From Calditrichota bacterium (lineage in GTDB: Bacteria; Zhuqueibacterota; Zhuqueibacteria; Zhuqueibacterales; Geothermadaptataceae), in contig QQUE01000007.1 in the NCBI GenBank assembly GCA_008501765.1, forward strand, positions 372,001-436,000: a stretch of DNA of 64,000 bases. Reading direction: 5' to 3'. How positions within the stretch are numbered: position 1 is the stretch's first letter; the number at the start of each line of letters is the position of its first letter. Below, piece after piece: positions 17,708-20,763 of the stretch. The translations under genes and the position numbers were made by a program. The notes beneath the pieces are model-generated. The model saw nothing but the letters and a program-made list of their open reading frames with translations, did not search any database and was not told the DNA's origin.

Positions 17708-18226
17708 TCATTTTTTATCTGGAAAAACTTTCGATAACCAGCTATAAAGCAATCCGGCGCAAATGGCCATGACGAGTGACAAAACGATGCGATAAATAAA
17801 GAAATTCATACCAAACAGGCCAATCTCAAAAGGAATTCGGGCCGGGCCGAATATTGTTTGACCGGTGATGTAGGAAACAAGAATAGAATTATTTATACCT
17901 TCTTTTTTTAATATCACAACGATTGGGTAAATCGCATAAACCGGCCCAGGTGTCAAGATTCCAAGAACAGAGGCGCTAACAAGGTAGATTAATTTATTCT
18001 GTTTAAGATATTTTTTGAAGTAGTCCGGAGGAATTAAAAAATGGACAATTGTGGCAATGCAGACAGCCAGCATCGTAAGCAGCAAAATTTTAATGATAAG
18101 GCCACGGTTCTGCTGCAAAACGTGTACTATGTTTTTATCACTGTAAATTGAAAGGATAATCGACAAAACTATGAGTGAAATTCCGACCTTAACTTCAGGG
18201 GACAGCTTTTTTAATCGTTCTAACAT
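17708..18226 (-). CDS. Half-permease with PGPxYxxYPI motif (second copy)
   Basis: About 172 residues with roughly five membrane segments. The core LTPGPVYAIYPIVVILKKEGI, followed by GQTIFGPARIPFEIGLFG, matches the neighbouring gene's core position by position. The layout (a Gly/Pro-rich loop, then a polar L...G loop) resembles one repeat of COG0701/PF03773 permeases, which usually carry both repeats in one chain. I chose the ATG at 18226, 4 nt after the upstream stop; a TTG at 18265 would overlap it by 35 nt. The two products probably form a heterodimeric membrane complex encoded with the TAXI-channel protein. Substrate unknown. Confidence 0.7.
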   Translation of the reverse strand: MLERLKKLSPEVKVGISLIVLSIILSIYSDKNIVHVLQQNRGLIIKILLLTMLAVCIATIVHFLIPPDYFKKYLKQNKLIYLVSASVLGILTPGPVYAIYPIVVILKKEGINNSILVSYITGQTIFGPARIPFEIGLFGMNFFIYRIVLSLVMAICAGLLYSWLSKVFPDKK

Positions 18227-18687: not shown

Positions 18688-20763
18688 TTAAAGTTTAGGA
18701 AATTTTTCCGCTAACACGACCAGGGCATCGCCTTTTTTAATATGATCAAATATTACATCTTTTGATGATCTTTTCTTTCCGGAATGCGGATTTAAAATGA
18801 TTTGATCACCTCTTTTTACACCGATTAAAATAACCGGGTTGGGTGCCTTTCGCTTCTCATTAATTTTTCGTGCCGCGTCCTGAAATGTCAATTTTTCATC
18901 ATAAAATTCTTGCGGTATATTTTTTTCAGTAACGATAAATACCGATGTTTTATTTTGTTCGTACTGCAATAATTCATGAAAAATATGACTCATTCCATGG
19001 TACAAAGCGCTTTGCAGCATGATACCTGTGCGGTAAAAACCAGCGGATACAACCTCATTGGCACCAGCCCCTTCGGTTAATTCTTTATTACTCCGGTCCA
19101 TGAGCTCCGCAATGATGTAAGGCTTGGTTTTCTTGGCCAGTTTATCGATAGCTAAACAACAAATTATCGTTTGTGGATCTGGTTTATCGTTGTTTTGATC
19201 CGAGAGAATGATGACGCTTTTTGCTTTTGTTACATTAACACATTCCAGTGCGGTGCTGTTGGTAGGATTGTCTTTCACAAACAATACATCGCGATAGTAA
19301 CTTTTTTTGCGTAATGCTGCTTCGTCCACACCCTCTTCAAACATAATTATTATATGCGCATTTTTACCGTGTTCTGATTGTCGAAGTTCCCGCACGATAT
19401 CATCACCCCGATTATTCCAATAACAAATGACGATATGGTCTTTAATATCCATGGGTATCTTATCTCCTTTCTCTCGCAAAAACATGGCGGCAAAATTACC
19501 AGCCACCGATCCAAGCACGCCAACACTGCCAATTAATATCAGAATTGAGGAAATTTTACCGCCCAAAGTAATCGGGTTGCTTCCCTCAAATCCAATTAAT
19601 AAATAAATCATTGTTATCCAAAATGAACCAAGAAAATCATCAAAATTTTCATTCACATCTTTTTCAAAATAATAGGTACCTAAAGTTCCAATGATAAACA
19701 GAGACAACAGAATAACTGTTAGGCGGAAATAAATATTGTGACGAAACAGGCGTCTGATATTTCTCTGATAAAAAACGATTAGGATCAAAACACCCGCTGG
19801 AAATCCTAAAATCACCAAAAAACTCAGCCAATCATATAATTCCCACTGATGGTGTCCATCAATCTTGTAATAGTTTTTTGCACCCGTGTGCAGTGGTTCA
19901 TTTCCAGAATAATATTGAAATTTTCCAAACAACCGGTGACCACGCGGCACAGAAAAAATTGTATTGGCGATTTTATAGATTATATGGTTCGGAACATCCT
20001 TGCGTGCTACAAATAGAGTTTGAACTGAAAGCGTGGGAATAAATAAATTCTGATTCTCGGCAAATATTGTGTCCGTTGAAAAAAAAGGGTAATTGTCAGT
20101 AAGCTGCTCAGCCATCTTTGCCTCGATGGGCAAAAGCGGAAAACCGCGTGTCATTATTTTTTGCAAAAACGGAGCATCAGGATTGGCTGTGAAAAACATT
20201 GCATCGATTCGTTGACTCTGTAGGGAATCGATCGCCGAGTTGAGTGGTAAAAAGACTTGCTGATAATGCGTTGAATCAAGACCGTATGCGTCAAGTATGG
20301 CTGCAGCATTAAAAGCTGTACCACTCTTTCGCTCACCCGTCGCAATTCTTTTTCCTGTCAGCTCAAAAACAGATTTAACTGTACTCCCTTTGGGGAGAAA
20401 AATATATATCAACTCAGAGCTCTTGAGCGCTGCGATTACGGTTAAATTTTCATAAGGCGTGCGCTGAAAATTTCGTGTACCTTTTTTAAAAGAGGATGCG
20501 ATATCCTCCTGAATTAAAGCCAATTGAACTTCATTGTTCCCCAATAGCAAAGTATTATCCATTGAACCACGAGTAGAGTCGACGATAATACTAAGGGAAT
20601 TCATATACTTCGCAGCGATCGCATTTTTTAAATCCCAACCGAGTTCAAAATAAAGACCACCTGTGGATCCGGTTGCAAGATGCAATTTTTCTTGTACCTG
20701 GGCAAAAAGTAAACATGGGGAAAAAAATAATACAATCATGCTGACAAATAACTTTTTTAGCAT
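18688..20763 (-). CDS. TAXI solute-binding domain fused to ion-channel pore and RCK/TrkA-N domain
   Basis: 691 residues. A signal peptide (1-21, cleaved near FAQ) is followed by a TAXI/NMT1-type periplasmic binding domain (about 27-300: LATGSTGGLYFELGWDL, STRGSMDNTLLLGNNEVQLALIQ). Next come TM1 (311-331), then a two-TM pore module: TM2 344-364, re-entrant loop about 379-396, TM3 402-425. The C-terminus is a TrkA-N/RCK Rossmann domain (HIVICYWNNRGDDIV, about 443-560) and a TrkA-C-like end (about 610-691). The filter that normally reads T-V-G-Y-G-D is LIGFEGS. Each domain family is known; I know of no described protein with this order, although GluR0 combines another binding-protein fold with a K+ pore. 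No TRAP permease is adjacent; two half-permeases follow. A ligand-gated channel or receptor is inferred. Confidence 0.82.
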   Translation of the reverse strand: MLKKLFVSMIVLFFSPCLLFAQVQEKLHLATGSTGGLYFELGWDLKNAIAAKYMNSLSIIVDSTRGSMDNTLLLGNNEVQLALIQEDIASSFKKGTRNFQRTPYENLTVIAALKSSELIYIFLPKGSTVKSVFELTGKRIATGERKSGTAFNAAAILDAYGLDSTHYQQVFLPLNSAIDSLQSQRIDAMFFTANPDAPFLQKIMTRGFPLLPIEAKMAEQLTDNYPFFSTDTIFAENQNLFIPTLSVQTLFVARKDVPNHIIYKIANTIFSVPRGHRLFGKFQYYSGNEPLHTGAKNYYKIDGHHQWELYDWLSFLVILGFPAGVLILIVFYQRNIRRLFRHNIYFRLTVILLSLFIIGTLGTYYFEKDVNENFDDFLGSFWITMIYLLIGFEGSNPITLGGKISSILILIGSVGVLGSVAGNFAAMFLREKGDKIPMDIKDHIVICYWNNRGDDIVRELRQSEHGKNAHIIIMFEEGVDEAALRKKSYYRDVLFVKDNPTNSTALECVNVTKAKSVIILSDQNNDKPDPQTIICCLAIDKLAKKTKPYIIAELMDRSNKELTEGAGANEVVSAGFYRTGIMLQSALYHGMSHIFHELLQYEQNKTSVFIVTEKNIPQEFYDEKLTFQDAARKINEKRKAPNPVILIGVKRGDQIILNPHSGKKRSSKDVIFDHIKKGDALVVLAEKFPKL

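Follow-up and report, generated by a model that had tools for sequence, protein, structure and literature searches.

A TAXI-type binding domain fused to an RCK channel, beside a pair of half-size permeases, in Calditrichota: a candidate ligand-gated channel

The window, that is the whole stretch of 64,000 nucleotides analysed here from contig QQUE01000007.1 of a Calditrichota bacterium, contains a gene in which an exported binding domain, an ion-channel pore and a cytoplasmic RCK domain are joined (Table 1). On the minus strand, positions 18688-20763 form one uninterrupted open reading frame of 691 residues (N-terminus MLKKLFVSMIVLFFSPCLLFAQ), and the opposite strand of the same segment has many stop codons; inspection of the reading frames upheld the coordinates of a preliminary description of this DNA and placed the gene on the minus strand. 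The order given in that description, with a signal peptide followed by a TAXI domain, an extra transmembrane segment (TM0), a two-TM pore and an RCK domain, agrees with the domain searches, the alignment with MthK and the hydropathy profile. The neighbours of the fusion gene are a divergent DAHP synthase gene, two genes for half-size permeases, a sodium/solute symporter-family (SSF) gene and a gene for a Gfo/Idh-MocA-type oxidoreductase.

Table 1. Positions in the window of the fusion gene, its parts and the two adjoining permease genes
Feature	Residues or size	Position	Strand	Basis
TAXI-TM-pore-RCK fusion gene	691 aa	18688..20763	minus	single ORF; same architecture in G002, G075 and own-genome paralogue
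Signal peptide	1-21	20701..20763	minus	hydropathy peak 5-23 after KK; AQ cleavage-like site; read by eye
TAXI-type periplasmic binding domain	24-303	19855..20694	minus	TIGR02122, NMT1_3, 1us4/8s4j alignment, conservation
Extra transmembrane segment TM0	about 310-333	19765..19836	minus	hydropathy peak 2.74 at 313-331
Pore TM1	344-366	19666..19734	minus	MthK alignment; 65-74% identity to homologues
Pore helix and filter loop	380-398	19570..19626	minus	MthK alignment; pore-only profile match to K+ channels
Non-canonical filter GFEG, replacing GYGD	391-394	19582..19593	minus	alignment; invariant in three fusions
Pore TM2	399-430	19474..19569	minus	MthK alignment; 62-84% identity to homologues
RCK N-terminal (TrkA_N/Slo-like) lobe	440-575	19039..19446	minus	Pfam; MthK alignment
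RCK C-terminal lobe	576-691	18691..19038	minus	weak Castor_Poll_mid similarity; MthK aligned to residue 672
Half-size ArsP_1-like permease subunit 1	132 aa	18231..18629	minus	Pfam ArsP_1 1.4e-4
Half-size ArsP_1-like permease subunit 2	172 aa from ATG 18226	17708..18226	minus	Pfam ArsP_1 4.2e-12

Two further genomes of the phylum encode homologues of the fusion. In a member of the same genus (G002), residues 5-488 lie on one contig that crosses the TAXI-pore junction, with 55-56% identity, and the remainder lies on another contig; a member of another family (G075) encodes a full-length fusion of 711 amino acids with 36% identity. A frame error or misassembly joining two genes, named as a possible source of the fusion in the preliminary description, was tried as an explanation and rejected: independent full-length homologues exist, and in these separate assemblies the same fusion is contiguous over the junction and free of stop codons, so that the probability of a chance or assembly artefact is close to nil. 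Single-sequence AlphaFold predictions were uninformative for both the whole protein (pLDDT 37) and the pore segment (pLDDT 63), and nothing was concluded from them.

The exported part of the protein is a TAXI-type periplasmic binding domain, as the preliminary description had proposed. The NCBIfam model TIGR02122 (TAXI) scores 159 bits over residues 1-300 against a cutoff of 84.35, and Pfam NMT1_3 matches residues 29-300 (1.6e-43); NMT1 and Phosphonate-bd were the other Pfam matches of this domain, and the Pfam search returned no match to SBP_bac_3 in the fusion protein. Among the adjoining genes examined, a TRAP membrane component of the DctQM type was absent. The closest solved relatives are TtGluBP (1us4/1us5, the former deposited under the title 'putative GluR0 ligand binding core') and VcGluP (8s4j), which have the glutamate-site residues in common with the fusion; these are, however, soluble and unfused binding proteins of TRAP transporters, whereas the TAXI domain described here is fused to a channel.

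The glutamate site of VcGluP comprises Y45, S75, Q93 and E125, of which Y45 and Q93 weigh most in binding (PMC11574862). In an alignment with 1us4 and 8s4j these positions correspond to Y38, S67, Q85 and E117 of the fusion, and all four residues (YSQE) are kept in each of the five fusion TAXI domains. Glutamate at first appeared to be a strong candidate for the ligand, but the case was weakened once the same residues turned up in 22 of the 33 unfused TAXI proteins compared; the remaining ones lack them and include seven proteins that form a clade and read F-T-N-N or F-T-N-V instead. Because the four residues are also common in ordinary TAXI proteins, they prove neither glutamate binding nor gating, and a glutamate-like outer ligand is probably a reasonable first guess and no more. 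Other arrangements of TAXI domains were noted in the same searches. Proteins of about 430-450 amino acids with a TAXI domain, one C-terminal TM segment and a cytoplasmic helical tail, which also occur outside the phylum (L092 3528-4844, L030 1919-3241, L034 1547-2899, L033 2251-3549 and L091 1722-3002), are possible TAXI-based membrane sensors. A 545-residue reading frame (L089 3193-4827) carries the TAXI domain at its C-terminal end (residues 226-537), and this elongated TAXI protein resembles BP0403.

The hydropathy profile contains, besides the signal peptide, membrane segments at residues 313-331, 344-362 and 398-425. The first of these is the extra TM segment previously placed between the TAXI domain and the pore, and equivalent peaks are present in all homologues. 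The loop between TM0 and TM1 (YQRNIRRLFRHN) is positive, with four Lys/Arg and no acidic residues. Since the loops follow the positive-inside pattern and the number of TM segments is odd, the simplest topology would have the TAXI domain outside, three TM segments and the RCK domain inside; the signal peptide, the TM count, the positive loops and the C-terminal RCK domain would all imply a periplasmic P-loop. The two-TM pore with its re-entrant loop, also part of the preliminary description, is recovered by alignment, although Pfam Ion_trans_2 stays below its cutoff both in the whole protein (0.17) and in the pore alone (0.021). With phmmer, MthK aligns colinearly across TM1, P-loop, TM2 and RCK (residues 330-672, E 4e-17), and a pore-only profile, built from six related pore segments with the RCK part left out, matched K+/cation-channel pores in all of the best 60 of 263 PDB matches (best E 5e-7).

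The selectivity filter differs from that of K+ channels. The MthK sequence TVGYGDYSP is aligned with LIGFEGSNP of the fusion, in which the TVGYG signature is absent, and G391, F392, E393, G394 and P397 are invariant among three fusions; the unfused relatives have GFEE (G077), GEYGD (G046) and GEYPD (G127). Because the filter is GFEG instead of GYGD, the fusion is not a canonical K+ channel and K+ selectivity is unlikely; a non-selective or divalent-permeable pore would be the more likely state. To our knowledge, no characterised channel has a GFEG filter. An RCK channel without TVGYG, CASTOR, conducts Ca2+ and requires an acidic residue in its filter (PMC6697748). By analogy, E393 may favour cations generally or divalents, although acidic-filter permeation of the CASTOR kind is a guess.

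For the cytoplasmic part, Pfam assigns residues 440-573 to Slo-like_RCK (4.5e-15) and TrkA_N (2.1e-11), in accordance with the TrkA-N/RCK domain first proposed; Castor_Poll_mid in the C-terminal lobe (E 0.0036, 17.7 bits) is below its gathering score of 26.7. Gating from inside by a nucleotide-binding domain, another element of the preliminary description, found no support. Dinucleotide-binding RCK domains carry GxGxxG, and the fusion, which has VICYWNNRGDDIV at this position, is without the motif, as is MthK with VICGWSESTLECL. As to Ca2+, the binding residues of the MthK RCK domain are, in the numbering we take to apply, D184, E210 and E212; in the alignment read with this numbering, the fusion has kept one Asp and, within IIAE, the first Glu, and has Met for the second Glu.

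Conservation along the protein is uneven. Identity to the window protein in G075 and G002, respectively, is 31 and 52% in the TAXI domain, 17 and 27% in TM0 and the linker, 65 and 74% in TM1, 47 and 79% in the pore loop, 62 and 84% in TM2, and 43 and 60% in the N-terminal RCK lobe. The pore helices are the best-conserved part of the fusion, and therefore the pore is under selection for more than a role as anchor; it forms the core of the protein, which speaks for conduction over mere membrane anchoring. The poor conservation of TM0 and the linker is unexpected for a finely tuned coupling element and counts against the channel reading. It is conceivable that the protein is a non-conducting transmembrane receptor with a degenerate pore, in which occupancy of the TAXI domain is relayed to an RCK ring that controls a partner, for example the permease or another channel subunit. 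The filter without a K+ signature would fit such a receptor, RCK rings serve as regulatory subunits of other transporters (TrkA, KtrA), and the TAXI-TM-cytoplasmic-helix proteins of the same phylum suggest that TAXI domains may act as plain sensors. However, the filter loop is conserved rather than decayed, with GFEG invariant in three fusions, TM1 and TM2 are the most conserved regions, and CASTOR conducts despite its acidic, non-TVGYG filter (PMC6697748), and we consider the non-conducting receptor rather improbable.

A second, distant fusion of 773 amino acids is encoded in the same genome as the window, on contig C4 (L022 4581-9134). It belongs to a three-gene cluster with a 452-residue channel-RCK protein (filter SGFD) and a 284-residue RCK-only protein that passes the Pfam cutoffs of BK_channel_a and Castor_Poll_mid, and the cluster looks like a channel with additional RCK rings supplied in trans. 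The pair of SGFD channel and RCK-only protein was also found, with no TAXI fusion upstream, in G001 and G017 (L028 5819-8084, L029 5760-7888), and again in G041 and G061 (L015/L050, L016/L046). In G060, a fragment at a contig end is 58% identical to the TAXI domain of the C4-type fusion. Of the 82 genomes searched in the phylum, four have one or the other fusion type. A search for the architecture elsewhere, suggested in the preliminary description, recovered it in G002 and G075 and in none of the genomes searched outside the phylum. These were about 300 genomes, together with overlapping sets of 391 relatives of G127 and 382 of G199; in all of them the best few candidates were scored, so that a miss is possible. 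A single-protein scan of genome contigs returned only a plain two-TM GYGD channel from a Bdellovibrionales MAG, a tblastn search of plasmids gave only TAXI proteins among the matches listed and no place with 80% query coverage, and a search of viral contigs found no relative.

In the channel tree, the window type forms a group with channels of G077, G046 and G127 that lack a fusion (100/99 support), and the C4-type fusion falls elsewhere, as do the ordinary GYGD channels of the same genomes. The separation of the two types implies at least two gains or losses of the TAXI fusion, within the limits set by the long branches of the trees; the TAXI tree neither supports nor excludes a single source of both (58/79). 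Repeated pairing of TAXI domains with different RCK-channel lineages suggests that the combination may be useful in itself. Among unfused proteins, the closest relatives of the window channel are the GEYPD channels of the G127 group and the GEYGD and GFEE channels of G046 and G077, respectively. In G127 the unfused RCK channel is a 356-residue reading frame with the filter GEYPD (L084 8157-9227), and channels with this filter also occur in its relatives G423, G522, G392 and G456 (loci L117-L126); phycobilisome genes near the G127 locus, read by eye, suggest that this group is cyanobacterial.

The two genes that follow the fusion constitute the main addition to the preliminary description, which had missed them. 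They encode half-size ArsP_1-like permeases, of which subunit 2 scores above the ArsP_1 cutoff of 32.3 bits (46.3) and subunit 1 below it (21.5). The two subunits share homology, and the CSCG motif of full-length ArsP_1 relatives is replaced in them by TPGPVYAIYP and SPGPRYILYP. Subunit 2 starts 4 nt past the stop of subunit 1 (the ORF lister gave TTG 18265 as an alternative start). Half-size ArsP_1-like permeases of about 180 amino acids, with PGGPYVSLP replacing CSCG, are widespread (L100-L109), and overlapping pairs of such halves of about 180 amino acids occur at L110 and L113. Counterparts of the window pair are located in the same place in G002 (79% identical for subunit 1, 69% for subunit 2) and G075 (59 and 51%), and in G075 the fusion stop and the permease start overlap in a 4-nt ATGA. 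Among the 82 genomes, a close pair (>50%) is confined to the three with the window-type fusion, the next best being at 30-34%, and no comparably close pair was found without the fusion. This conserved linkage is strong evidence that fusion and permease pair have a function in common.

The linkage also raises a serious alternative to the channel reading, in which the locus would encode a binding-protein-dependent transporter: the TAXI domain would hand its ligand to the ArsP_1-like permease, and the channel-RCK part would serve as an anchor with a regulatory role or as a supporting ion pathway. The association in all three genomes, the ATGA overlap and the higher conservation of the permeases (79/69% and 59/51%, against 55% and 36% for the fusion in G002 and G075) all favour such a transporter, and TAXI proteins are already known to serve, and to be fused with, a non-TRAP transporter. 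The latter is TAXI-GltS of Bordetella and Lachnospiraceae, a proposed binding-protein-dependent transporter in which a TAXI protein recruited from TRAP systems, with glutamate as its ligand, is joined to another membrane protein by fusion or translational coupling (PMC12344293); its partner is a Na+/glutamate symporter, whereas here an RCK channel and ArsP_1-like half permeases are involved. Nevertheless, the TAXI domain is covalently attached to the channel and not to the permease, the pore is conserved beyond the needs of an anchor, and the C4-type fusion has no adjoining permease and is accompanied instead by a second channel and an RCK gene. A transporter of this kind thus appears unlikely, if less so than the non-conducting receptor.

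Ionotropic glutamate receptors (iGluRs) are usually explained by an inverted K+ channel that splits a binding protein. In iGluRs and GluR0 the pore is inverted and inserted within the binding domain (PMC6385376, PMC2950845), and the likeness of the fusion to GluR0 and other prokaryotic iGluRs (surveyed in PMC2950845) is that a bacterial substrate-binding domain is joined to a two-TM P-loop pore. The idea behind GluR0, that an amino acid in the periplasm gates the pore by way of a Venus flytrap, is proposed here too. GluR0 had been cited in the preliminary description as an example of the general idea, and this stands as far as a binding protein fused to a pore is concerned, but the build is different. 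The binding domain of GluR0 is split (S1-M1-P-M2-S2), whereas the TAXI domain of the fusion is N-terminal and contiguous (29-300) with the pore afterwards at 344-430; it is of the TAXI family and not SBP_bac_3/Lig_chan, it is attached via an extra TM segment, and the fusion adds an RCK ring, a GFEG filter and a pore that, from the predicted topology, would be non-inverted as in K+ channels. With the flytrap at the filter end of a pore oriented as in K+ channels, the gating geometry would therefore have to differ from that of iGluRs.

Two other groups of channels are relevant for comparison. MthK-type RCK channels have TM1-P-TM2 followed by RCK in one chain, as does the fusion (E 4e-17), which differs in having GFEG for GYGD and, in addition, the exported N-terminal TAXI domain and TM0. 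The plant channels CASTOR/POLLUX/DMI1 (PMC6697748) resemble the fusion as RCK channels without TVGYG whose filter region contains an acidic residue, and there is a weak Castor_Poll_mid similarity; however, CASTOR and POLLUX have four TM segments and a long soluble part with a tandem RCK ring, whereas the fusion has TM0 and two pore TM segments, one RCK domain and an extracellular binding domain, and the relation is too distant for Castor_Poll_mid to reach its Pfam cutoff. The preliminary description knew of no earlier account of the TAXI-channel-RCK order, and our literature search, which covered few subscription journals, likewise found no paper describing it. The fusion is probably a type of ligand-gated channel that is undescribed in the literature covered.

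The best explanation of the locus, and one that we consider fairly likely to be correct, is that four copies of the protein would form a cation channel, with sensors both outside and inside the cell, that works with a heterodimeric permease. A TAXI 'Venus flytrap' on each subunit would bind a small carboxylate or amino acid in the periplasm, L-glutamate or a near analogue being the most likely ligand, and its closure, in the direction of gating presumed here, would be relayed by TM0 and by the short loop that joins TM0 to TM1 in the cytoplasm, and so reach a two-TM pore that is MthK-like and non-inverted. TM0 would connect the flytrap to the cytoplasmic end of TM1, the RCK ring would connect to TM2, and both would act on the same pore, which the intracellular RCK gating ring would set or co-gate and which, with its GFEG filter, would be non-selective or divalent-permeable rather than K+-selective. 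The channel would act with the downstream heterodimer of half-size ArsP_1-like permeases, probably as parts of a single complex or of a common response pathway. The ligand-gated channel of the preliminary description thus remains the best reading, stripped of nucleotide gating and of a GluR0-like build and with a permease-linked module or transporter as its serious rival. In a more specific version, the three genes would encode a receptor-channel-transporter complex in which TAXI and RCK jointly gate an acidic-filter, non-inverted GFEG pore physically coupled to the permease heterodimer; this is possible, and we put it forward tentatively.

If such a three-gene complex exists, it would represent a ligand-gated channel design distinct from that of GluR0 and the iGluRs, and, from the channel tree, TAXI domains would have been joined to RCK channels more than once. 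The fusion would be an independent joining of a bacterial binding protein with a P-loop channel, with another fold family, an intact binding domain, a pore oriented the opposite way and an RCK ring. Being small, the protein may lend itself to tests of how a pore can be gated by a flytrap on its filter side, and GFEG may offer a new filter sequence for testing the rules of selectivity. If this interpretation is true, binding-protein-gated channels would have been invented more than once, and ligands from outside and from inside the cell would control one bacterial pore.
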